From positions 1 to 26,162 of IMG/VR virus record IMGVR_UViG_3300044293_000835: DNA of 26,162 bases. The stretch is one strand, 5' to 3'. Below are positions 11,298 through 20,611 of the stretch, in pieces. Every line of letters begins with the position of its first letter. Within the stretch, counting starts at the first letter, position 1. The DNA comes from a virus. The notes under the pieces were generated by a model. That model was not told the DNA's origin, did not search any database, and saw only the letters and a list, made by a program, of their open reading frames with translations. The translations under genes were made by a program, and so were the position numbers.

Positions 11298-11489
11298 TTA
11301 TTTTACTATTCCGTTAATATTATTTTCTGATATATATTTTTCAGCTTCTTCTTTTAATTTAAAAACAGCTGGAACGCCGTTCGGTAAAATATAAACTTTT
11401 CTAGTTGTATTATCTAAAATATAATAACCTGGCTTTTGAAGCTTCTTTAACTGTTCAGGTATTTGATTGGTTTTGAACTGCTTTAACAT
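11298..11489 (-). CDS. Small hypothetical protein, 63 aa
   Basis: The product (63 aa) starts MLKQFKTNQIPEQLKKLQ and has a short beta-like middle (GYYILDNTTRKVYILPNGVP) before a charged helix. No family is recognised. Its ATG at 11487-11489 has GCGAGGT about seven bases upstream, which supports this start even though it overlaps the end of the DUF3008-like gene by 35 bases. It is likely co-transcribed from the late promoter at 11682-11689. Confidence 0.5.
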   Translation of the reverse strand: MLKQFKTNQIPEQLKKLQKPGYYILDNTTRKVYILPNGVPAVFKLKEEAEKYISENNINGIVK

Positions 11490-11676
11490 TGTATACCTCG
11501 CTAAGAATATTATTTACGATATCGTCAAAGCTTTCTTTCTTTAAAAACTTTTTAACTTCTTTTTTAGGCATTTCTTTAGCAACTTTTTTAGCTGCACCTT
11601 TTACATTTTTTTGACCCGTTTTAGCGCCCATTACTGCACCAAAAAATCTTTTTTGTTTTTCTGTTTTTGCCGGCAT
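11455..11676 (-). CDS. DUF3008-like small basic phage protein
   Basis: The 73-aa product begins MPAKTEKQKRFFGAVMGAK and continues through a lysine/alanine-rich helix to SFDDIVNNILSEVYN. The first half matches the pattern of the small DUF3008-type proteins found in many phages (PAK-x-x-x-QQRFFG, then a Lys-rich helix). Function is unknown; the charge suggests nucleic-acid or virion association. Near its C-terminus the peptide NNILSE resembles the N-terminal tags of the other late proteins. The ATG (11674-11676) is five bases downstream of a late promoter octamer, so the mRNA is predicted to be leaderless. Confidence 0.65.
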   Translation of the reverse strand: MPAKTEKQKRFFGAVMGAKTGQKNVKGAAKKVAKEMPKKEVKKFLKKESFDDIVNNILSEVYNVKAVQNQSNT

Positions 11677-11681
11677 ATAAC

Positions 11682-11689
11682 TATTTATT
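11682..11689 (-). promoter_or_regulatory. T4-type late promoter (AATAAATA), five bases from ATG
   Basis: The minus strand reads AATAAATA, then gttat, then ATG at 11676. The octamer overlaps the stop codon (TAA, 11688-11690) of the upstream gene. Confidence 0.65.
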
Positions 11690-12398
11690 ATTTTTTACCC
11701 ATATTTCTACGAGCTCTTTTAAGCCATTCTTGCCTTCGAAGTTCATAATATGGATCTTTTTGCCAATCCGGTCTAAGCTTATAGCCTTTACTCCATCTTA
11801 TAATAGGATCTAAAGCCCTTCCAACATTTCCGCCTATTACTACATTATGCGCAGCATCAACTGCACGAAACGGTGCTTCAACTGCTCCTTTAGCTAATGC
11901 TGCAGCACCCCCTATAGCTTTACGGGTACCCTTTGCAATACTCTTTAAAATCCCTTCATTGATAGGTTCATCATGCATAATAAAATTTTTATATAAATTA
12001 GCCAATTTATCATCTGTAAATCCTTTTTGCTTTAAAAATGTTTCAATATCACAAAGGTTATTTGCACTTGCAACATTACACAAAATAGGATCACCTTCTT
12101 GAGTACCTGATCTTAACATTTCGCTTAAAATATAGCTCTTTAATTCTTCAAACGTCTCCAACTTATCATCTTCAGCTATAGCTTCAATAAATTCTTCCGG
12201 TATATCATCAATAGTTAATTCCGGTGATAGTACTAGTATTTTTAATTTACCTACACCTTCTGCGAGGATATATCCCTCATAACCATTTATTTTTGATAGA
12301 TCTATTCCAGAATTTATTAATGCGGGATCTACCTTTATGCGAACCTTTTTTAAGGCAGTTTTATTAAGGGTTTCAAGAATTATATTACAATATCTCAC
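11688..12398 (-). CDS. Hypothetical late protein with capsid-tag-like N-terminus, 236 aa (GTG start)
   Basis: The start is taken as GTG at 12396-12398, because a perfect late octamer lies exactly five bases before it. A longer frame to 12713 is open but would run antisense through folE and is rejected. The product starts RYCNIILETLNK, in which I-L-E ends at residue 9. It has a beta-rich N-terminal part (VRIKVDPALI, then GYEGYILAEG, then LKILVLSPEL), a middle helix, and a C-terminal Gly/Ala-rich segment (KAIGGAAALAKGAVEAPFRA) followed by a basic tail. No family is recognised. By promoter and N-terminus it groups with the late, possibly virion-associated genes. Confidence 0.6.
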   Translation of the reverse strand: MRYCNIILETLNKTALKKVRIKVDPALINSGIDLSKINGYEGYILAEGVGKLKILVLSPELTIDDIPEEFIEAIAEDDKLETFEELKSYILSEMLRSGTQEGDPILCNVASANNLCDIETFLKQKGFTDDKLANLYKNFIMHDEPINEGILKSIAKGTRKAIGGAAALAKGAVEAPFRAVDAAHNVVIGGNVGRALDPIIRWSKGYKLRPDWQKDPYYELRRQEWLKRARRNMGKK

Positions 12399-12403
12399 AC
12401 TAT

Positions 12404-12411
12404 TATTTATG
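12404..12411 (-). promoter_or_regulatory. T4-type late promoter (CATAAATA), five bases from GTG
   Basis: The minus strand reads CATAAATA, then atagt, then GTG at 12398. It is divergent from the folE promoter (12412-12439), so early and late promoters lie back to back within 36 bases. Confidence 0.65.
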
Positions 12412-12439
12412 TTGATCTTGTTACATCTTATCATATAAT
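12412..12439 (+). promoter_or_regulatory. Sigma70-like promoter for folE
   Basis: TTGATC (12412-12417), a 16-bp spacer and TATAAT (12434-12439) lie seven bases before the ATG at 12447. With a usual start point the mRNA would begin at or next to the start codon. Confidence 0.5.
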
Positions 12440-12446
12440 AACTATT

Positions 12447-13100
12447 ATGTTTAAGAAGAAGCTGGCTTTTGCAAATCATAATAACCCTCATACAGAAGAA
12501 GAAAGAAAGCAAATTATACTTAAAGCTGCAGCAGCTTATGAAGCTTATATGGATGCATTGGGTTATGACTGGAGAAATGATCCTAATAGTGCTAATACAC
12601 CGCACCGAGTTGCTAAGGCATTTGTTGAAGATTTTGCATGGGGATGTTATAGTGAACCACCCAAGATTACTGCGTTTGATAATGTAGATAAATATGATGG
12701 TATAGTATCGCAAACGAATATTAAGGTTACCTCTCTTTGTTCACATCACCATGCTCCGTTTATGGGATTTGCGCATGTAGCTTACATACCCGCTAAAGAC
12801 GGTAAGGTAATTGGTCTCAGTAAGCTTAATCGTATTGTTGATTGGTTTTCGCGTCGTCCACAAGTTCAAGAAAACCTTACAATGCAGATTCACGAGTACA
12901 TTGATGAAGTCTGCGTAAAAAATAAAGGAGTAGCAGTTATGATTGAAGCTGCGCATACCTGTTGTTCTAACCGAGGGATAAGACATGACTCGACAATGCG
13001 TACTGCTAGAATGTCCGGAGCATTTTTAGATGATAAAGATAATTCCAGAAATGAATTTTATAAGTTTGTTGATTTTGCTCAAAATAGAAAACTTATTTAA
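12447..13100 (+). CDS. folE: GTP cyclohydrolase I (FolE)
   Basis: FolE makes 7,8-dihydroneopterin triphosphate from GTP, the first step towards folate and 7-deazaguanine. The 217-aa protein has the family landmarks in order: NTPHRVAKAFVED (50-62), SLCSHHHAPFMG (97-108) with a zinc-binding cysteine and histidines, IGLSKLNRIVDWFSRRPQVQE (122-142), and AHTCCSNRGIR (169-179) with the second zinc-side cysteine. Length matches the family (about 180-220 aa). In this phage it most likely feeds QueD and QueE rather than folate. It stands alone on the plus strand with its own sigma70-like promoter, directly opposite a late gene. Confidence 0.92.
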   Translation: MFKKKLAFANHNNPHTEEERKQIILKAAAAYEAYMDALGYDWRNDPNSANTPHRVAKAFVEDFAWGCYSEPPKITAFDNVDKYDGIVSQTNIKVTSLCSHHHAPFMGFAHVAYIPAKDGKVIGLSKLNRIVDWFSRRPQVQENLTMQIHEYIDEVCVKNKGVAVMIEAAHTCCSNRGIRHDSTMRTARMSGAFLDDKDNSRNEFYKFVDFAQNRKLI

Positions 13101-13105
13101 CAACG

Positions 13106-13113
13106 ACTAAATA
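13106..13113 (+). promoter_or_regulatory. T4-type late promoter (ACTAAATA), five bases from GTG
   Basis: The plus strand reads ACTAAATA, then attat, then GTG at 13119. The octamer is imperfect in its first two positions, but the spacing matches the other late genes and picks the GTG start. Confidence 0.55.
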
Positions 13114-13118
13114 ATTAT

Positions 13119-13442
13119 GTGAGTCGGTCGCTATTAATAAATGGCGATTTAATAAACCCTCCATCCAGCATTTCGTGTGTGAGGGATATAACTTTTATTG
13201 CTCATGAATATCTAGATTTGGATGTTATAATAGAATGTATAGTTGAAAAGGATTTTTATCATAGATATCTCAAGAATTTTGGTGCTATGGATTATGTAGA
13301 TGAACTAACATTATTTGGAGAAGAGGAAGGTATGAGAATTGATAACGACTTTCATTTTGACCCTACTATTTATGTGACAGACGTTATTAATGCAAAAAAC
13401 ATTCAGTTAATTTTGAGTAGTATCGGCTTCAGAGGCTTTTGA
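13119..13442 (+). CDS. Hypothetical late protein, 107 aa (GTG start)
   Basis: I do not recognise this acidic 107-aa protein. It begins SRSLLINGDLINPPSS and contains DLDVIIECIVEKDFYHRY and a C-terminal VINAKNIQLILSSIGFRGF. A GTG start at 13119-13121 is supported by the late octamer five bases upstream; an ATG overlapping it (13117) is followed at once by a stop. The last 36 bases overlap the convergent protease-like gene. Because the frame lies alone between two clear genes it is probably real. Confidence 0.5.
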   Translation: MSRSLLINGDLINPPSSISCVRDITFIAHEYLDLDVIIECIVEKDFYHRYLKNFGAMDYVDELTLFGEEEGMRIDNDFHFDPTIYVTDVINAKNIQLILSSIGFRGF

Positions 13443-14066
13443 TTTTTTCTTAAAAACTATAAAAGGTTTTTTTGTTTCTGGATTAAAAATTTTTAATATA
13501 TCGTTACCTTTAAATTTTGGACTACCTTGTTTATTAACAATTAAAGTTTTTTGTTTATTTGCTATTCTTCTTATAAGATTTTCTGAATAATTACCAAGCT
13601 TCCAATCATTAGCTAATTTATCATTTTTATTAATAGCAACAACTTTATATTTTACAGATTCATGAACCGGTTTATTAACATCAATTAAAGCGTTTAGCTT
13701 CTTTAAGAACGGCTCACCTACTAAAATAGGATCTTCATTTTCAGACCGGTCTGCAATACTAAAAGGAACACTCTTGTAGTTTTTTCCATTAATAGATATA
13801 TCCATTAAAACTATGGGTCTATCTTCTTTTACACCACTGCCTATATGGATTTTAATTTCACCTTTTCTAGGCTTAGTTAAACGCTTTCCGTCAACAGTAG
13901 TAAAAGAAACATTTTCCCCTTCTTCAGATACATCAACACCATGAATTACATTATAAGCTTCATTACCGCTATCTATCTTAGCCTTTATTTTTCCTAACCC
14001 ATCTATTTCAATAAGTTCATTTGCTCCAAATACAGGCTTTTCATAAAACTCTTTAAATGTCTGCAT
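13407..14066 (-). CDS. Retropepsin-like aspartic protease-fold protein
   Basis: The 219-aa protein has a retropepsin/RimB-like layout: GLGKIKAKIDSGNEAYNVIH with the active-site-type D32-S-G34, then PRKGEIKIHIG, then FSIADRSENEDPILVGEPFL (102-121), which resembles the second hallmark (hydrophobic-hydrophobic-G-x-x-F-L) of the ATP-dependent zinc protease/RimK-associated family. The C-terminal 90 residues (130-219) are basic and unlike the core; VNKQGSPKFKGND and a KKPFIVFKKK tail could bind nucleic acid. The N-terminus, MQTFKEFYEK, is close to the T4 internal-protein tag (MKTYQEFI). The ATG at 14066 is chosen over an upstream TTG; a late octamer lies six bases before it. Protease activity is not shown. 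Confidence 0.6.
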   Translation of the reverse strand: MQTFKEFYEKPVFGANELIEIDGLGKIKAKIDSGNEAYNVIHGVDVSEEGENVSFTTVDGKRLTKPRKGEIKIHIGSGVKEDRPIVLMDISINGKNYKSVPFSIADRSENEDPILVGEPFLKKLNALIDVNKPVHESVKYKVVAINKNDKLANDWKLGNYSENLIRRIANKQKTLIVNKQGSPKFKGNDILKIFNPETKKPFIVFKKKSKASEADTTQN

Positions 14067-14072
14067 CAAATA

Positions 14073-14080
14073 TATTTATG
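14073..14080 (-). promoter_or_regulatory. T4-type late promoter (CATAAATA), six bases from ATG
   Basis: The minus strand reads CATAAATA, then tatttg, then ATG at 14066. It lies in the 66-base divergent gap (14067-14132) before the deaminase-like gene. On the plus strand that gap has only a weak GATAAT. Confidence 0.6.
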
Positions 14081-14132
14081 GATATTTCTTTTGTTTATTT
14101 TATTATGTTTTGATGGATAATATCTTTAAAAG

Positions 14133-14516
14133 ATGCACAGAAATATCACACGCTTTAAAAAAAAGCATGGTGATTATCGTTGCAAGCATTTCTCATTTAT
14201 TTTTGACAAAAATAGATTAGTTTCTATTGGCTTTAATAACCCTAATAAAACTCATCCAAAAAATTTAAAAATAGGTTTTTTTAATAGAAGAGGAGAGGAT
14301 ATATCTCATACAATAGGCGTACATTCTGAATTATCTGCTATTCTTAAATTAGGCGAAGAGGATTGTACGGGATTAACTTTAGTCAATACTAGAATAAACC
14401 GTAATAATGAATTAGATTTATCAAAACCGTGTAAAGGCTGTAATTCTTTAATTAAACAACTCAATTTTAAGAAAGTCTTTTTTTCAGTCGACAATAAATC
14501 GTTTTCTCAGCTTTAA
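14133..14516 (+). CDS. Cytidine-deaminase-fold protein (HxE...PCxxC)
   Basis: The 127-aa protein has the zinc-deaminase signature: GVHSELSAI with H64-S-E66 as zinc ligand and proton shuttle, and PCKGC (C100, C103) as the second zinc site, joined by a strand (TLVNTRINR). This fits small CDA-like or MafB19/dCMP-deaminase-like proteins. It lacks the larger allosteric part of T4 dCMP deaminase, so the substrate (free cytidine nucleotide, nucleic acid, or a pterin/deazaguanine-type ring) is open. The start at 14133 is the only good ATG of this frame. It is followed after 17 bases by the late gene at 14534. Confidence 0.65.
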   Translation: MHRNITRFKKKHGDYRCKHFSFIFDKNRLVSIGFNNPNKTHPKNLKIGFFNRRGEDISHTIGVHSELSAILKLGEEDCTGLTLVNTRINRNNELDLSKPCKGCNSLIKQLNFKKVFFSVDNKSFSQL

Positions 14517-14520
14517 TTAG

Positions 14521-14528
14521 CATAAATA
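14521..14528 (+). promoter_or_regulatory. T4-type late promoter (CATAAATA), five bases from ATG
   Basis: The plus strand reads CATAAATA, then tttac, then ATG at 14534. Confidence 0.65.
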
Positions 14529-14533
14529 TTTAC

Positions 14534-15121
14534 ATGTTTGCTAAAGATTTTCACCTTTTAAACGAATTATATTCTCAAAAAATATCTAAAGAGAATGTCG
14601 GTATTGGTCCTCTAAGCGATAATGCAGGTGTAACACCGTCACCATCAAAAATTCAAAAAGTTCAGTTTTCTCCAAAACATTCTTTTGATAAGTACGGTGA
14701 AAATAAAGAAGCAGGTGATGAAGATTGTGAAGGCCATAACCCTGAAACTTATGATAGTAATAGTAAAATGTCCCGTCAGCTTTTATTTAGAATGGTTAAG
14801 CTTTCTGCCATGTTACATGATATTTTAAAAGATAAAGATAATGTTGAAGCATGGGTTTTAAGTAAAATTACTAATGCACATGATCAATTAGAGTCTGTTT
14901 TTGGTTATGAAGATTATGAAAATGCGATGAACCCTATGCAAGGTGCATGCGGTCAAATGCCAGGTAATTTAGAAGAAAACAATGAAGAAGATTTATATAC
15001 TGCAATTTCTAAAGGTGGTGATGATTTAATAAATCAAATTAAAACAGTTTTAAGACGCGAATCAAAAGATACTCTAGAAAAAGTGTTAATTGAGACCATA
15101 ACACTGCTAGAAAAGAAATAA
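14534..15121 (+). CDS. Putative virion-associated protein, 195 aa
   Basis: The protein starts MFAKDFHLLNELYSQK, a hydrophobic helix with L-N-E at 9-11. A low-complexity linker (about 25-80) follows, then a helical domain, SRQLLFRMVKLSAMLHDIL and VEAWVLSKITNAHDQLESVF followed by GYEDYE. That last domain recalls one shared by many marine T4-like structural or head-associated proteins, in which the pattern L-x-x-WV-x-x-KI-x-x-A-x-D-x-x-x-x-V is common. The C-terminus is a long charged helix. Its late promoter gives a predicted leaderless mRNA. It ends exactly where the convergent nucleotidylyltransferase gene ends, with no gap and no terminator. Confidence 0.55.
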   Translation: MFAKDFHLLNELYSQKISKENVGIGPLSDNAGVTPSPSKIQKVQFSPKHSFDKYGENKEAGDEDCEGHNPETYDSNSKMSRQLLFRMVKLSAMLHDILKDKDNVEAWVLSKITNAHDQLESVFGYEDYENAMNPMQGACGQMPGNLEENNEEDLYTAISKGGDDLINQIKTVLRRESKDTLEKVLIETITLLEKK

Positions 15122-15769
15122 TTAACCTAATCTATTATTAAATAGGTTGTAAATCTTAGGGTCAAATTTACCGAGAGCTGATTTTATTATTTGTTTGCGA
15201 AAAGCTTCATTTGATTGCCTGTATAGACTTCTTAACTCTGAAGCGCTAGTTATTCTCTTATCACCTACAGAAAAGTCAATTGTAATAGGTGCAAAAATAT
15301 AACCGTGACCACCATCTTCTCTAAACGGTTGCATTGAATTTAAATCAGTAAAAGGCTGAAAATAAGTAGGCGTACCTTTTTTTGTTACACCAAATTTAAA
15401 TCTGGGATCTGATTTCATATCTTTTTTACCCACTACATATACTACTTTTGCAACATTAGAATCATAATTTTTTAAAATTTCTAAAGGTTTGTAAGGCTGA
15501 TTTACTTGAACAACTTCATTTTCAGGTATTCCTGTAGCAGTTATAATTGCTTTTTTTTCAGTAAAACTAAAGGGATACCTTTCAGGGTCTTTAACTTTTT
15601 TAATTTCATCTGCTGTAGCTATAAAAAAATCTGCGCCCGGAAATTGTTTTTTAGCTAAATCATAAATTTTTTTATGACCCTCATGAAATGGTTGAAATCT
15701 TCCAGGAAATATAACTATAAGATTATTCTTTTGCTGCAAAATTTCATTTACTAGTTTATAAAATTTCAT
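15122..15769 (-). CDS. HxGH nucleotidylyltransferase (NMNAT/cytidylyltransferase-like)
   Basis: The 215-aa protein has GRFQPFHEGH (23-32) with the H29-E-G-H32 signature of HIGH-type nucleotidylyltransferases, closest in wording to NadM/NadR nicotinamide-nucleotide adenylyltransferases, then TADE (52-55), a conserved PFSFTEKKAII (66-76) and ITSASELR (173-180) in place of the ISSTxxR motif. The reaction would be transfer of a nucleotidyl group, for example NMN + ATP to NAD. The first nine residues MKFYKLVNE form a helix ending V-N-E, like other late proteins here. It is translationally coupled (ATGA, 15766-15769) to the ligase gene; an NAD or adenylate link between the two is possible. Confidence 0.75.
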   Translation of the reverse strand: MKFYKLVNEILQQKNNLIVIFPGRFQPFHEGHKKIYDLAKKQFPGADFFIATADEIKKVKDPERYPFSFTEKKAIITATGIPENEVVQVNQPYKPLEILKNYDSNVAKVVYVVGKKDMKSDPRFKFGVTKKGTPTYFQPFTDLNSMQPFREDGGHGYIFAPITIDFSVGDKRITSASELRSLYRQSNEAFRKQIIKSALGKFDPKIYNLFNNRLG

Positions 15770-16956
15770 AGCTGTGTCTCTGGAGTAAGAGTCAACCTTG
15801 CACCTTCTTTTCCAAATTCTGGATTTACTATATAATTTTGATTTGACATTTGTCTAGGATTTTCTTCTTCTTCTTGTCGTTTTGTTGCAAACTTACCTTG
15901 CTCTTTTCCTAAAATAAAATTACCTGTTATCTTAACAGGATTTGATGAAATAGTTTTATCTCTTACAACTATACCTTCTTGAGTGCTTAAAGGGCCTAGA
16001 TCTGAAGAAGCTGCATCCTTAATTGCCTGACCTAAGCTCATAGTAGCTTGATAAAAAACAGCGCCCGATATAGCTTTTTCGATAATCTTTTTATTTTTAC
16101 CTATGTAATAGTTTAAAGGCGTACCTGAAGTAATATTTTTATAATTTTCTAAACTCATAGCAGAAATTGTCTTGCCTGAGACTAATTTAATTTTATCCGC
16201 TCTTGGATTTTTGGCAGTAGCTAGCCAATCTTTAAGAGGTCTTGTAACAATATTTTTTGTATCAAAACTTACCGTAAAAGGAGAATTTAATGCGGTATTA
16301 AAATCAACATTACCTAGCTTAACTAAAAATTCATGCTCAATATCAAAACCTTTTTGCTTAGCTATAGGATTTACTTTAGCTATTAAATCTGTAAGCGCTT
16401 TTTTGTCATAATTAACTTCACGTGAAGCTCTTCTAATACTTCCTCTTACCGAGCTTTTAATTTCTATAATTTCATTTAAACTATGAATAGCTAAAAAGTT
16501 CTTCTCGTAACCTACAACATTTGTTGCACCCTGTACATATTCCATATTAAACAAAAGTTTATTGTTATTCCATATTTTTAATTTTTTAAGATCTTTTTCA
16601 ATAGTAGGAATAGCTGAATTAAAAATTTCTAATACAGTCTTACCTATGTTAAGCATACCATGACCTTGAGGAAAGCGGTTTCCGAGTGTAGCTATAGTAA
16701 CACCATGAACATCTTCTGGTTTATTTGATCCCCTATCCATAGCAAATTCTTTCTTACCCTCAGCATTTGTTATAAGCTTAATAGAAGCATTAGCGCCATC
16801 TATTTTAACTACAGATGGATTTGTAGCTAAACGTTTAGCAAGTTTTTGAAATACAGTAATTAAATTTTTACCTGTATTTGTGCTAGGTAAATCAAAGGGA
16901 TGTGCCATATGACCGGCTACTCCCCCTTCTAAAATAAATTGAGCAAAAGTAATCAT
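15766..16956 (-). CDS. ATP-dependent RNA/DNA ligase-family nucleotidyltransferase
   Basis: The 396-aa protein has the motifs of the covalent nucleotidyltransferase superfamily: motif I K51-I-D-G54 (adenylated lysine), DRGS (74-77), FNMEYV (136-141, motif III-like acid E139), EGIV (327-330, motif IV) and VKITG (341-345, motif V with K342). These fit RNA/DNA ligases joining nicked nucleic acid. The protein begins MITFAQFILEGGVAG, a T4 internal-protein-like tag with I-L-E at 8-10 followed by G. It is coupled by ATGA junctions to the nuclease-like gene upstream and the nucleotidylyltransferase downstream. Whether RNA or DNA is the substrate cannot be decided by eye; the long insert between motifs III and IV is unusual. 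Confidence 0.75.
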   Translation of the reverse strand: MITFAQFILEGGVAGHMAHPFDLPSTNTGKNLITVFQKLAKRLATNPSVVKIDGANASIKLITNAEGKKEFAMDRGSNKPEDVHGVTIATLGNRFPQGHGMLNIGKTVLEIFNSAIPTIEKDLKKLKIWNNNKLLFNMEYVQGATNVVGYEKNFLAIHSLNEIIEIKSSVRGSIRRASREVNYDKKALTDLIAKVNPIAKQKGFDIEHEFLVKLGNVDFNTALNSPFTVSFDTKNIVTRPLKDWLATAKNPRADKIKLVSGKTISAMSLENYKNITSGTPLNYYIGKNKKIIEKAISGAVFYQATMSLGQAIKDAASSDLGPLSTQEGIVVRDKTISSNPVKITGNFILGKEQGKFATKRQEEEENPRQMSNQNYIVNPEFGKEGARLTLTPETQL

Positions 16957-18464
16957 CCTAAAGCTACTCTTACAGTACCCCTTGTGTTATCTACACCTAA
17001 ACTTATAGACATATTAATATTTTTTCTATTAAAAAAACTAAATATATTTTTTACACTGTCTGTAAAAGAACCTGGTTCAACATACATTGCAACTATCTTT
17101 GTTGGCAATCGCCTTATGTCAGATGCCTTTTCAGCATCAGAATTAAAAAATATTATGTATTTAAAGGGCTTTTCGCGCTGATACTCTGCAACATGAACTG
17201 CTCCTATAAATCTATACAATGGTGAAGTAGATCTACCGGTAAAATCTAGCAAATCAGGATATGTCTTTAATAATTCTCTAGCTACTTCTGCTATTTCATT
17301 CTGATTGGTATCTGAGCTTGATCTTAAATATTTTGTACCTTCAATTTTTATTTCCGGATTTAAATTTTGACTAAAAAAAGCTGCAATTGCGGGAGCAAAT
17401 TTACTTTTTTTACCTCTTATAGAAGTTGCTTCTCCTTTTTCTATTTGCTGTAAAATACCAATTAAATTATTAAGATAAGTTTTACTATCATTATCTAGAT
17501 TAGATCTATTTACTGCTTCAATAAGTTTGTCAGTATTCTCTAAATTTAATAATATATTTTCTAGATCATTAATAATTTTTTGACGTGTTGTGGGATCAGT
17601 AGAAGTAAATTTATTTCTTCTAGTTGAAGAGTATCTAGACTTTAATTCTAATATATCTCTTTTAATTCTTTCTCTCTGACTAGCCACATTAGTAGATTGA
17701 ACGGAAATACCACTCGCGTGAGTAGCTAGTAGTTTATTTAACCCTTCATATGTTTCAGTATTTGCTACTTTACCGGAGCCCAGAGCTGCGTTATTACCCT
17801 TTACTTCAACTGCTCCGAAATCAAATTCTAAATCACCTTCAACACCTTTCTTTGCATCACTTATCATTGTTAATGCAAGCTCACCGGGACCTACATTAGC
17901 CTGACTTTTAGGCTCTATAGACCACAGAGCTTCTAAAACTTTAAACGCGTCTTCGGGAGCTTTAAATAACGCTTTAAACTTGTCTGAGAGCAAATCTTTA
18001 ATGTTATGAACCTCCAAATCTTTTAACAAAACGTTTCTTATAGGATTATCTTTATCCGTTTGTAAACTATATAATTTATTAAATTCCTTATAATTTAAAT
18101 CAACAGAATCAAATGCACGCGCTACATCATTAAATACAGCGCTTTTTTGACCCTTTCCTTCCGGTGCCCAGCGATCTACTTCTAGGCATTTAGCTATTAT
18201 ACTATCTACACTTAATGTCTGTTTGTCTTCTTCTTTTTCGGCTTCATAAACCTCTGCTCTTCTTATTCGTGCGAGAATCTCATTAGCTACTTCATTTGGA
18301 ACTTTGAACACAGGTAGTTGTTCTCCAGGATCTTTTTGTATTAAAATTTCAGCCATACCAGGCTGTTCCTTTAAAATAGTTTGTCTTGGTAGTAGGGGTA
18401 CTGGTTTAGCAAACGATTCAGATAGATAGACTTGATCTAAGCTCTTGTAAGGCTTTCTTTTCAT
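16953..18464 (-). CDS. Large late protein with PD-(D/E)XK nuclease-like core
   Basis: The 503-aa protein is mostly helical, but residues 191-230 hold a PD-(D/E)XK-type core: GPGELALTM with E195, GDLEFDFGAVEVKGNNAAL with D211 and E220-x-K222. The order E...D...ExK with the following G-x-x-A is typical for this nuclease fold in phage and restriction enzymes. The N-terminus has the tag-like SLDQVYLSESFAK with L-S-E at 14-16. Its remaining length (230-503) is unassigned and includes a charged helical region (250-340) and a final beta part. It belongs to the operon 18910-15122. The nuclease call rests on few residues, so a non-catalytic relative is possible. Confidence 0.55.
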   Translation of the reverse strand: MKRKPYKSLDQVYLSESFAKPVPLLPRQTILKEQPGMAEILIQKDPGEQLPVFKVPNEVANEILARIRRAEVYEAEKEEDKQTLSVDSIIAKCLEVDRWAPEGKGQKSAVFNDVARAFDSVDLNYKEFNKLYSLQTDKDNPIRNVLLKDLEVHNIKDLLSDKFKALFKAPEDAFKVLEALWSIEPKSQANVGPGELALTMISDAKKGVEGDLEFDFGAVEVKGNNAALGSGKVANTETYEGLNKLLATHASGISVQSTNVASQRERIKRDILELKSRYSSTRRNKFTSTDPTTRQKIINDLENILLNLENTDKLIEAVNRSNLDNDSKTYLNNLIGILQQIEKGEATSIRGKKSKFAPAIAAFFSQNLNPEIKIEGTKYLRSSSDTNQNEIAEVARELLKTYPDLLDFTGRSTSPLYRFIGAVHVAEYQREKPFKYIIFFNSDAEKASDIRRLPTKIVAMYVEPGSFTDSVKNIFSFFNRKNINMSISLGVDNTRGTVRVALG

Positions 18465-18466
18465 TT

Positions 18467-18910
18467 TTAAACTGCAATATCATTACTATAACGCTTCATT
18501 ATATTAAGAATTTCTTTATATTTTGCCATAAAATTATTTTCGTTTATAGAAGTTACAAATTTAAGAAAATGCGGATTTTGTATTTTTTGAGGATTATCTT
18601 GATAATTTTCATTAGTTGCTATTGCTGCTTGCAACCCCTCTCTTACTTGTGTAGCATTTTCTCTAGTAATAGGGATAGTAAAGAGATCATCAATAGCACC
18701 AGCAGGTATATTCATTATCAGCGCCTTAGCTAACATCCGTACAATATCTACATATCCTTCAGGGGGAACAGATTGCGGTGCTTCATTTTGAGAGGGCGCA
18801 GGCTGTTCTGCTGCAGGGGCAGGAGCTGCCGCATCTTCTGGAGGTAAAGCAGATTGATCTGCTTCAACATACAAATCCATATATTTTTTTAATGCTTCGG
18901 TAAAACTCAT
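18467..18910 (-). CDS. Hypothetical late protein with Pro/Ala linker, 147 aa
   Basis: The protein starts MSFTEALKKYMDLYVEADQS, an amphipathic helix with V-E followed by A at 15-17, then a Pro/Ala/Gln linker (23-48) and a helical domain (YVDIVRMLAKALIMNIP, then NENNFMAKYKEILNIMKR). No family is recognised. The linker separates the tag-like helix from the rest, as in proteins with a removable N-terminus. It is the first gene of the late operon 18910-15122 and sits three bases upstream of the nuclease-like gene. A late octamer lies exactly five bases before its ATG. Confidence 0.55.
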   Translation of the reverse strand: MSFTEALKKYMDLYVEADQSALPPEDAAAPAPAAEQPAPSQNEAPQSVPPEGYVDIVRMLAKALIMNIPAGAIDDLFTIPITRENATQVREGLQAAIATNENYQDNPQKIQNPHFLKFVTSINENNFMAKYKEILNIMKRYSNDIAV

Positions 18911-18915
18911 ACTAA

Positions 18916-18923
18916 TATTTATG
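18916..18923 (-). promoter_or_regulatory. T4-type late promoter (CATAAATA), five bases from ATG
   Basis: The minus strand reads CATAAATA, then ttagt, then ATG at 18910. It drives the four-gene operon 18910-15122. Confidence 0.65.
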
Positions 18924-18926
18924 TAA

Positions 18927-19490
18927 TTATACTATAAGAAGTTGTTTAGTCTTAAGGAGATTAAAATATTTTTTATTTAAAAAAACTAGATCATTTTTCT
19001 TTGTAAAAATCTTTACTTTATTAAATGTAAACTTCTCTATATTAACAGAGTTTATATAGTTTCTGATATTGTTTATAACTTCAATACCTCTACCATCGTT
19101 CTTTTCTAATAAATGAGATAAAAACTCAAATGAAATATTTGTTACAAAAACCTTAATAGGTAGTAATCTTTTGACTTTTAGTAAAATAGAATTAATAGTT
19201 TTTAGTACGTCTTCTTCTTTAAAATATTTTAAAAGTCTAAAATTGTCTAATTGAGTGTTATTAAAATATATTACATTTTTTTCTGTAGATTTATCATTAA
19301 GAAGAAATTCACAAATACCATGAATAATGTGATGGTAGATAAATTTTTTAGCATCTGAACGAATTTTAGGCTGTAAAAGATTAAAATTTTGTAAATCGTT
19401 AATTAAGTTAACTTCTATATTTTTATAAAACAAATAATTAAAATTTATTAATCTAAAATTGTATTGTTTAAAATCCATCTTACGCATCAT
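18927..19490 (-). CDS. Hypothetical protein, 187 aa
   Basis: I recognise no family. The protein is rich in Asn, Phe, Leu and Lys, begins MMRKMDFKQYNFRLINFNYL, and looks alpha/beta with repeated hydrophobic strands (IKVFVTNISFEFL). No signal peptide, membrane span or catalytic motif is seen. Its N-terminus lacks the tag found on neighbouring late proteins. Two ATG codons in tandem (19490, 19487) and a third at 19478 could be the start. It follows the GIY-YIG gene by 15 bases and probably shares its transcript. Confidence 0.5.
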   Translation of the reverse strand: MMRKMDFKQYNFRLINFNYLFYKNIEVNLINDLQNFNLLQPKIRSDAKKFIYHHIIHGICEFLLNDKSTEKNVIYFNNTQLDNFRLLKYFKEEDVLKTINSILLKVKRLLPIKVFVTNISFEFLSHLLEKNDGRGIEVINNIRNYINSVNIEKFTFNKVKIFTKKNDLVFLNKKYFNLLKTKQLLIV

Positions 19491-19505
19491 ATTAGTTGAT
19501 TTTTT

Positions 19506-19922
19506 CTAGTGTTCAAGAAATTTTTTCGGAGGCCTACCGATCCTTACATTTATAATACCATTATAATAATCATCTCTTAATAAAACACTTTTTTCAATTT
19601 GTTCAGAAATTTCAAAATAAGCTAATTCCCATTTTGACTCACACGTTTTTATAATTTTAAAAACAAATTTATCCTTTCCATATTTTTTAATATCTTCATT
19701 AAGCTCTGCAGATGAGCTTGTATAGCCTCTCCAGTCAGATTCCTTAATTAATATTCTTTTATTTTTTTTATCTTTAAGAGGCTTTCTTTTTAGTTTTGAT
19801 TTACATTGTTTTTTACCAATATATTTTTTTCCTGTTACAGTATTTGTTATTTCGTAAATAAATCCAAAAGTATTGTCATCTATACTAACAGATTCACTTA
19901 ATATCCAATGCCCTATATCCAC
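19506..19922 (-). CDS. GIY-YIG endonuclease-like protein (GTG start)
   Basis: The 138-aa protein has the GIY-YIG core: GFIYEITN (20-27), KKYIGKK (32-38), a basic stretch (KLKRKPLKDKKNKR), SDWRGY with R65, LNEDIKKYGKDKF (74-86) and an E-containing LAYFEISEQ. It resembles the small GIY-YIG (Seg-like) proteins common in T4-like phages, which cut DNA as homing or host-DNA nucleases. The start is GTG at 19920-19922, fixed by a late octamer five bases upstream. Its N-terminus HWILSESVS carries L-S-E at 8-10, like other late proteins here. Being late and tagged argues for a virion-linked role rather than a mere homing enzyme; that is inference. Confidence 0.7.
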   Translation of the reverse strand: MDIGHWILSESVSIDDNTFGFIYEITNTVTGKKYIGKKQCKSKLKRKPLKDKKNKRILIKESDWRGYTSSSAELNEDIKKYGKDKFVFKIIKTCESKWELAYFEISEQIEKSVLLRDDYYNGIINVRIGRPPKKFLEH

Positions 19923-19927
19923 TAAAC

Positions 19928-19935
19928 TATTTACT
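19928..19935 (-). promoter_or_regulatory. T4-type late promoter (AGTAAATA), five bases from GTG
   Basis: The minus strand reads AGTAAATA, then gttta, then GTG at 19922. It begins at the last base of the stop codon (19935-19937) of the upstream gene. Confidence 0.6.
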
Positions 19936-20192
19936 TACAATCCCAATCCAGGCAAAGGCCTTCTTTGTATTTTAATCTTTTCTTTTTTTCTCTTTTTACC
20001 CATTCCAAGAATTTTTGGAACACGCGCATCATTTGGAGCATACGCTTTATCATTTTGCGAAGGAAATTGATTTCCAAATTCTCCCTGTACACCACCGGTA
20101 CCAATACCAAATACACTATTTGCCCCACCGGCGACCATATCTTCATTTAAAGCTCTATAGAATGCTTGCTCAAATAAACCTATTGATTTCAT
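19935..20192 (-). CDS. Small late protein, 85 aa, with tag-like N-terminus
   Basis: The 85-aa protein starts KSIGLFEQAFYRALNED, a hydrophobic helix with L-N-E at 15-17, then a Gly/Asn-rich stretch (GGANSVFGIGTGGVQG), AYAPNDARVPKILG and a basic tail (KKRKKEKIKIQRRP). The AYAPxDARxPK and QRRP wording is, as I recall it, common to small proteins of marine T4-like phages, probably virion-linked. A different frame of 71 aa lies over it (19931-20146); this frame is chosen for its composition and because its stop abuts the next late promoter. The start codon is divergent from uvsY with only 26 bases between them; no clear octamer is seen for it. Confidence 0.55.
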   Translation of the reverse strand: MKSIGLFEQAFYRALNEDMVAGGANSVFGIGTGGVQGEFGNQFPSQNDKAYAPNDARVPKILGMGKKRKKEKIKIQRRPLPGLGL

Positions 20193-20218: not shown

Positions 20219-20611
20219 ATGCTACTAGAAGACTACATAAAAGAGCTAGAAAACGACTTAAAAATAGATGAGCTCAATTTAAAAGATTATCAATTAAGGC
20301 TTCCAGGTATAAAGCATAAATGGGCAGGCAGATGTATTAGACATAAATTAGAGCTTATAGACATTAAGCGAGAAAAAGAAATTCTAAAGAAAACACTTGC
20401 GAATAAACTTCAAGAACAAAGCCCTGTTAAAATAACAGCTCCTGTTGCAGAGAGAACGGCTGAAAAATACGCCGAGGTTTTAAAATTTGATGATAAGATT
20501 AAACAATTTGAACTAATAATCGAACTACTTGAGAAGGCGGAAAAAACGCTTAGTTCTACTTCTTTTGATATTAAAAATTTAGTAGACATTATCAAACTTG
20601 AAACTACATGA
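20219..20611 (+). CDS. uvsY: UvsY-like recombination mediator
   Basis: T4 UvsY loads the UvsX recombinase onto single-stranded DNA coated with gp32. The 130-aa protein matches it in size (T4 UvsY is 137 aa) and in layout: LEDYIKELENDLKIDELNLK (3-22), then KHKWAGRCIRHKLELIDIKREKE with the basic helical core, and a C-terminal helix pair. It lies directly upstream of uvsW with an ATGA overlap, the same neighbour as in T4. The similarity is in pattern rather than close identity, but the position makes the call strong. The 26-base gap to the divergent late gene must contain both promoters; none is clear. Confidence 0.75.
   Translation: MLLEDYIKELENDLKIDELNLKDYQLRLPGIKHKWAGRCIRHKLELIDIKREKEILKKTLANKLQEQSPVKITAPVAERTAEKYAEVLKFDDKIKQFELIIELLEKAEKTLSSTSFDIKNLVDIIKLETT

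Follow-up and report, generated by a model that had tools for sequence, protein, structure and literature searches.

The genes at positions 11688-20192 of the IMG/VR record IMGVR_UViG_3300044293_000835 raise the question of whether unrelated phage enzymes that begin with similar short helices are delivered into the phage head. The whole 26,162-base record (hereafter, the window) is a genome fragment from a T4-like phage and carries genes for UvsY, UvsW, late sigma factor gp55, gp47, gp46 and a PhoH-like protein. An initial annotation had proposed that almost all products of this block start with a short hydrophobic or amphipathic helix, which in seven of them ends in [LIV]-x-E, comparable to the capsid-targeting tag of T4 internal protein III (IPIII). 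The N-termini quoted there were all found in place, the 236-amino-acid (aa) protein reading MRYCNIILE from the GTG codon at 12398, and the block probably encodes a set of tagged internal head proteins that would be cut by a gp21-type prohead protease and injected with the DNA. The distribution of the helix is narrower than had been thought: the block comprises five well-supported carriers (the ligase-like, nucleotidylyltransferase, 85-aa, 236-aa and 503-aa proteins), four doubtful ones (the 147-aa, 195-aa, GIY-YIG and protease-like proteins) and four products without a tag (FolE, a 107-aa protein, a deaminase and a 187-aa protein). The enzyme names used here derive from motifs and families, not from assays.

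The 396-aa ligase-like nucleotidyltransferase (15766..16956, complementary strand) begins with MITFAQFILE, followed by GG and the conserved motifs. This tag is in the exact register of T4 IPIII (MKTYQEFIAE), where residues 4 and 7 are responsible for targeting and residues 8 and 10 for processing (PMC9026906). Searches of the isolate collection gave no match to the ligase, but viral contigs contain more than 450 relatives of it; the comparisons made at the family level use starts anchored by BLAST and not those of a simple gene caller. In 75 of 81 homologues, [LIV]-x-E directly precedes the first conserved residues (GG..GHMAHPF), with Leu, Ile or Val at P3 and a hydrophobic residue at P4 in every case and any of nine residues at P2; the length of the tag varies within the family (MITFAQFILE, MKTFKQYYNTILNE, MKSFKQFIINE) and its end is constant. 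Three of the 81 homologues are untagged and start with M and then GG, at the exact tag boundary, and many distant homologues have the ligase fused behind the nucleotidylyltransferase in one open frame, with [LI]-x-E and then GG at the junction. Judging by these alignments, the tag of the ligase is a module that can be taken away; residues 1-14 are disordered in the AlphaFold model of the protein. The conserved motifs (VKIDGANAS, FNMEY, EGIVIRD and PVKIT) include the KxDG adenylation motif and motifs III, IV and V, and K51, D53, G54, E139, E327, G328 and K342 are invariant. A BFVD search revealed a Solivirus DNA ligase (E=5e-4); a fold search of the PDB returned only weak matches without significance, ligases and capping enzymes among them, and a sequence search of solved structures with the ligase and 503-aa profiles gave nothing useful.

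Several related contigs display unusual arrangements of the ligase gene. A 1483-aa frame (L068:8539-12987) combines the ligase, the nucleotidylyltransferase and two HExxH-like segments as one polyprotein, which contains KELNE/Q and LLTE/R near the domain junctions; a Pfam search of this protein found no family. In L063, L065 and L066, an HNH-endonuclease-like frame joins the ligase exactly at the leader (LLLC/GG), as if a homing element had been inserted. The linker between the nucleotidylyltransferase and the ligase in L048 and L061 carries a CW.GY..G..K.G..VPNCVPE segment, and the same segment lies behind the tag of a separate L046 protein (13036-13422), possibly representing a second shared module.

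Statistically, the tag signal is above chance. In the window and 80 related loci, a T4-style core, defined by hydrophobic P7 and P4, aliphatic P3 and Glu at P1, occurs at 7.8% of open reading frame starts and at 0.93% of internal methionines; for the exact T4 register, the shares are 1.0% and 0.02%, respectively. Strict tag patterns applied to the starts from a simple gene caller in five long related contigs gave 12 hits, 9 of which fell inside the homologous block, although it makes up about 8% of the contig sequence (binomial P ~2e-8); the reversed strict motif had zero matches in these contigs. Bare [LIV]-x-E is also frequent at the starts of non-block families, e.g., queD and uvsW. As a marker, [LIV]-x-E alone was rejected: it matches 58 of the 219 proteins of the cyanophage S-CREM2 and does not predict presence in the virion (P=0.09). 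The helix of UvsY (20219-20611), a recombination gene outside the block, fits the loose core in 20 of 28 orthologues, which is a chance fit and calls for caution with loose motif searches. As a separate observation, proteins encoded elsewhere (G012:80355 and G014:41087, contig coordinates) start with LIYEA/LIFEA, as in MNNDTKLIFEA, and possibly represent a second tag class.

A connection to the head that is independent of the motif arguments is given by the 85-aa protein (19935..20192, complementary strand), because it matches the capsid protein arm: it consists of a leader ending in ALNE, a duplicate of the N-terminal arm of gp23 and a basic tail. Each of its 25 homologues aligns with this arm in the major capsid proteins encoded by related contigs at E<=1e-3 (E=9e-16 for the window protein), and the P1 Glu is present in all 19 members scored. 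The alignment places the tag Glu within one or two residues of the capsid protein Glu at ..WCFE/ASN, which is probably the maturation site of the capsid protein; we take this segment to correspond to the maturation region of T4 gp23. On the strength of this homology, the 85-aa protein is a mimic of the capsid arm.

Conserved leaders are also found in front of variable or unassigned cargo. The 503-aa protein (16953..18464, complementary strand) has the leader PYKSLDQVYLSE/SFAKPVPLLPRQ-TILKE, followed by variable nuclease-like cargo. The family leader reads PYKSLxxVYLxE/SFAKPVPLLPRQ, usually with a second [IVL]-[LI]-x-E, and at the cleavage positions P3 is Leu or Ile in 18/18 sequences, P1 is Glu in 16/18 and P2 is free. 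Behind it there are at least four unrelated C-terminal groups; in the main group, E195, G210-D211 and E220-x-K222 are invariant in 12 sequences (GD..ExK, as in PD-(D/E)xK nucleases). The PDB fold search found nothing significant for the 503-aa protein, and the Pfam search, which included the variable cargo, found no family. In the family of the 236-aa protein (11688..12398, complementary strand), all 13 distinct tags fit M-x-[YF]-x-x-[LIV]-[LIV]-x-E. There is also an internal site, PINE/GILKS; the window protein and that of the nearest relative run on past [IL]-N-E/G, and the place of the distal part is taken in relatives by a separate tagged gene, e.g., L064 MINFEQYYNE/GLGSF, a correspondence drawn from position and motif and not from a BLAST match.

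The 215-aa nucleotidylyltransferase (15122..15769, complementary strand; PF01467, phrog_395) bears the tag MKFYKLVNE, and one of its orthologues starts with MKTFKQYISE; the tags of this enzyme and of the 236-aa protein are one residue shorter than the IPIII register, with unchanged spacing. This enzyme links the block to virion proteomes. In S-CREM2, a T4-like cyanophage available as an isolate, mass spectrometry (MS) identified 52 virion proteins (PMC10665884). The strict tag, here ^M.{1,3}[FL]..F[LIMF].E, is present in 5 of the 219 S-CREM2 proteins, a SAM hydrolase, a kinase, a cytidylyltransferase and two proteins of unknown function, and all five were MS-detected in the virion (Fisher P=6.5e-4; 5e-5 among non-structural proteins); a six-frame scan of 4729 possible start codons found the strict tag at those five only. 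A sixth case is the virion protein annotated as 'Cas9', in which LRFASFMAEAA occurs 17 residues in. In cyanophage S-SCSM1, the strict tag matches gp30 and the virion NMNAT gp91 (MKSFLQFLKEA), and the virion cytidylyltransferase of S-SZBM1 (S-SZBM1_140) starts with MRFRQFIIEA, so the virion cytidylyltransferases of all three cyanophages are tagged. Both cyanophage enzymes tested, S-CREM2 gp154 and S-SCSM1 gp91, which were detected in virions by MS (PMC10665884, PMC9602691), belong to phrog_395, as does the window enzyme, and S-CREM2 gp154 adjoins uvsW and gp55, like the block. The 'Cas9' label itself, given to S-CREM2 gp12 (L132:7704-10313), which is found in virions, looks wrong; the protein matches only phrog_3561, of unknown function.

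The protease that such tags would call for is encoded by relatives of the window phage. Of 16 related contigs, 14 encode a gp21-type prohead protease (PF03420), among them the closest one and all five of those analysed whole; where the neighbourhood was read, its gene adjoins those of the scaffold and the major capsid protein. Shared head delivery is favoured because the site is conserved, the ligase occurs both in fusions and untagged, the 85-aa protein is homologous to the capsid arm, the relatives have this protease and the cyanophage enzymes were detected by MS. Each core member would carry a capsid-targeting sequence of 9 to 16 residues at its N-terminus, a short amphipathic helix in which aromatic or hydrophobic residues are spaced out and which ends in [LIV]-x-E. 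By binding to the prohead core, this helix would draw the protein in while the shell is still open. Cleavage behind the Glu by the gp21-type protease would then release the mature enzyme, which would remain among the packaged DNA until its ejection into a newly infected host. The putative cargo comprises the ligase-like nucleotidyltransferase, the nucleotidylyltransferase, the variable nuclease-like protein and the small capsid-arm mimic. Packaging into the head is strongly suggested; core binding and cleavage are proposed, and injection into the host would follow the T4 precedent. Head delivery, as originally postulated, is retained for the five core proteins, but the case is weaker for the GIY-YIG, 147-aa and 195-aa proteins, and the protease-like protein has the targeting half only.

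Some observations weigh against this interpretation. The window contains neither gp21 nor gp23, ending short of the region where relatives have the protease gene, and the virion data come only from cyanophages, none from this phage or its close relatives. Four block genes carry no tag, and the Glu is absent in some nucleotidylyltransferase and GIY-YIG orthologues. The classes of the regular expressions were refined while viewing the data, with the register fixed beforehand by T4. S-SCSM1 gp30 has a perfect tag, yet it is not among the proteins marked as belonging to the virion. The authors of the S-CREM2 study leave contamination by co-purified enzymes possible (PMC10665884); the tag common to the S-CREM2 virion enzymes argues against it.

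The same tags could be signals for head targeting and cleavage on proteins acting in head assembly or DNA packaging and not in the next host. The copy of the capsid arm in the 85-aa protein suggests a structural role, and in T4 some of the core proteins serve assembly alone, but no role in head assembly is known for the ligase, nucleotidylyltransferase and nuclease-like cargo, and the tagged internal proteins of T4 are injected to work against host defence (PMC12373910); a function confined to assembly or packaging seems rather unlikely. That the helices are ordinary protein starts, with [LIV]-x-E arising from chance and shared ancestry, is consistent with the commonness and lack of predictive value of [LIV]-x-E alone, the UvsY fit and a GIY-YIG start that is a family feature. 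The enrichment over internal methionines, the null result with the reversed strict motif, the untagged ligase homologues beginning with M and GG and the S-CREM2 virion match contradict it for the core five, which makes it highly improbable as a general explanation; it could hold only for individual members. Since short amphipathic helices can bind membranes, the helix might also serve for docking elsewhere than at the head, for example to the host membrane, a replication compartment or a host protease. This idea deserves very little credence, given the IPIII register, the P1 Glu with a free P2 that gp21 needs, the alignment of the 85-aa Glu with the capsid protein's own site and the presence of tagged enzymes in virions.

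The remaining products of the block are less uniform. The 147-aa protein (18467..18910, complementary strand), originally listed as a looser match, probably has a tag, a helix ending in [LVFY]-x-E before a Pro/Ala/Gln-rich stretch, and the strict core is present in 11 of 25 orthologues, against a 2% background. The other looser match, the 219-aa Zn_protease-like protein (13407..14066, complementary strand; MQTFKEFYE), matches PF05618 at E=9e-5, below the curated cut-off; its family retains the targeting residues F4 and F7 but has mostly lost the cleavage site, with MKTFKQYIQE occurring in L064. T4 tags that likewise target without being processed are known (PMC9026906). The DFHLLNE tag assigned to the 195-aa protein (14534..15121, forward strand) is doubtful, with LND in place of LLNE in many orthologues; conservation is better at a K-I-x-x-E further along, in front of NVGLGP. 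The 138-aa GIY-YIG protein of the SegE type (19506..19922, complementary strand; GHWILSE) was downgraded as a clear carrier: 20 of 26 close relatives retain L-x-E, but HWILSE aligns with the N-terminus of the GIY-YIG homologues in Syn9, PhiM12 and Melnitz and is therefore not clearly an added tag. The untagged 187-aa protein (18927..19490, complementary strand) is encoded in the same operon. Next to the block, an untagged 73-aa DUF3008-like protein (11455..11676, complementary strand) has a virion protein, S-SCSM1 gp93, as its homologue and may reach the head by another route. The description of the block as a 'late' module found no promoter support: the late-promoter sequence TATAAATA does not occur upstream of block genes, leaving the label unproved, and is rarer in the window than chance would have it (4 sites against 9 expected).

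Perhaps, with the chances evenly balanced, the block exemplifies a large and mostly uncultured branch of T4-like aquatic phages with a dedicated injected-enzyme locus, combining exchangeable cleavable leaders, a variable nuclease-like slot, a capsid-arm mimic and, in some relatives, the same enzymes as one polyprotein that the prohead protease would process; the strict tag would then predict virion cargo in phages bearing gp21. The tags of the block offer a packaging mechanism for enzymes that recur in cyanophage virion MS and that the authors could not separate from contamination. They also yield a sequence rule by which proteins likely to be injected can be picked out in uncultured T4-like phages, a group that ranks among the most abundant viruses of aquatic habitats. 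What a phage injects is the first thing it can use in the host; the injected proteins of T4 are anti-restriction factors, which makes the new tagged cargo candidate enzymes for counter-defence or take-over.

T4 is known to inject leader-tagged proteins (PMC12373910), and cyanophage virions are known to contain enzymes; these are separate pieces of knowledge, and a literature search covering few subscription journals revealed no paper joining them. What seems new is that the cargo includes enzymes, that polyprotein forms exist, that one product mimics the capsid arm and that the strict tag has predictive value. Like T4 IPI, IPII, IPIII and Alt, with their 10-residue N-terminal amphipathic tag (aromatic residues 4 and 7, aliphatic 8, Glu 10), the block has unrelated mature parts from distinct Pfam and PHROG families behind one kind of leader, and its relatives have a gp21-type protease; unlike in T4, the cargo includes enzymes and a capsid-arm mimic, and some relatives fuse members into polyproteins. 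The virion cytidylyltransferases of S-CREM2, S-SCSM1 and S-SZBM1 bear the same kind of tag, whereas the accessible parts of the papers on these phages report no packaging signal. The ejection proteins of the giant phages phiKZ and SPN3US are likewise located in the head, processed behind x-x-Glu by a T4-type prohead protease and then ejected, but they show A/S-x-E cleavage and mostly long propeptides (PMC5694885), in contrast to the short [LIV]-x-E tags of the block.

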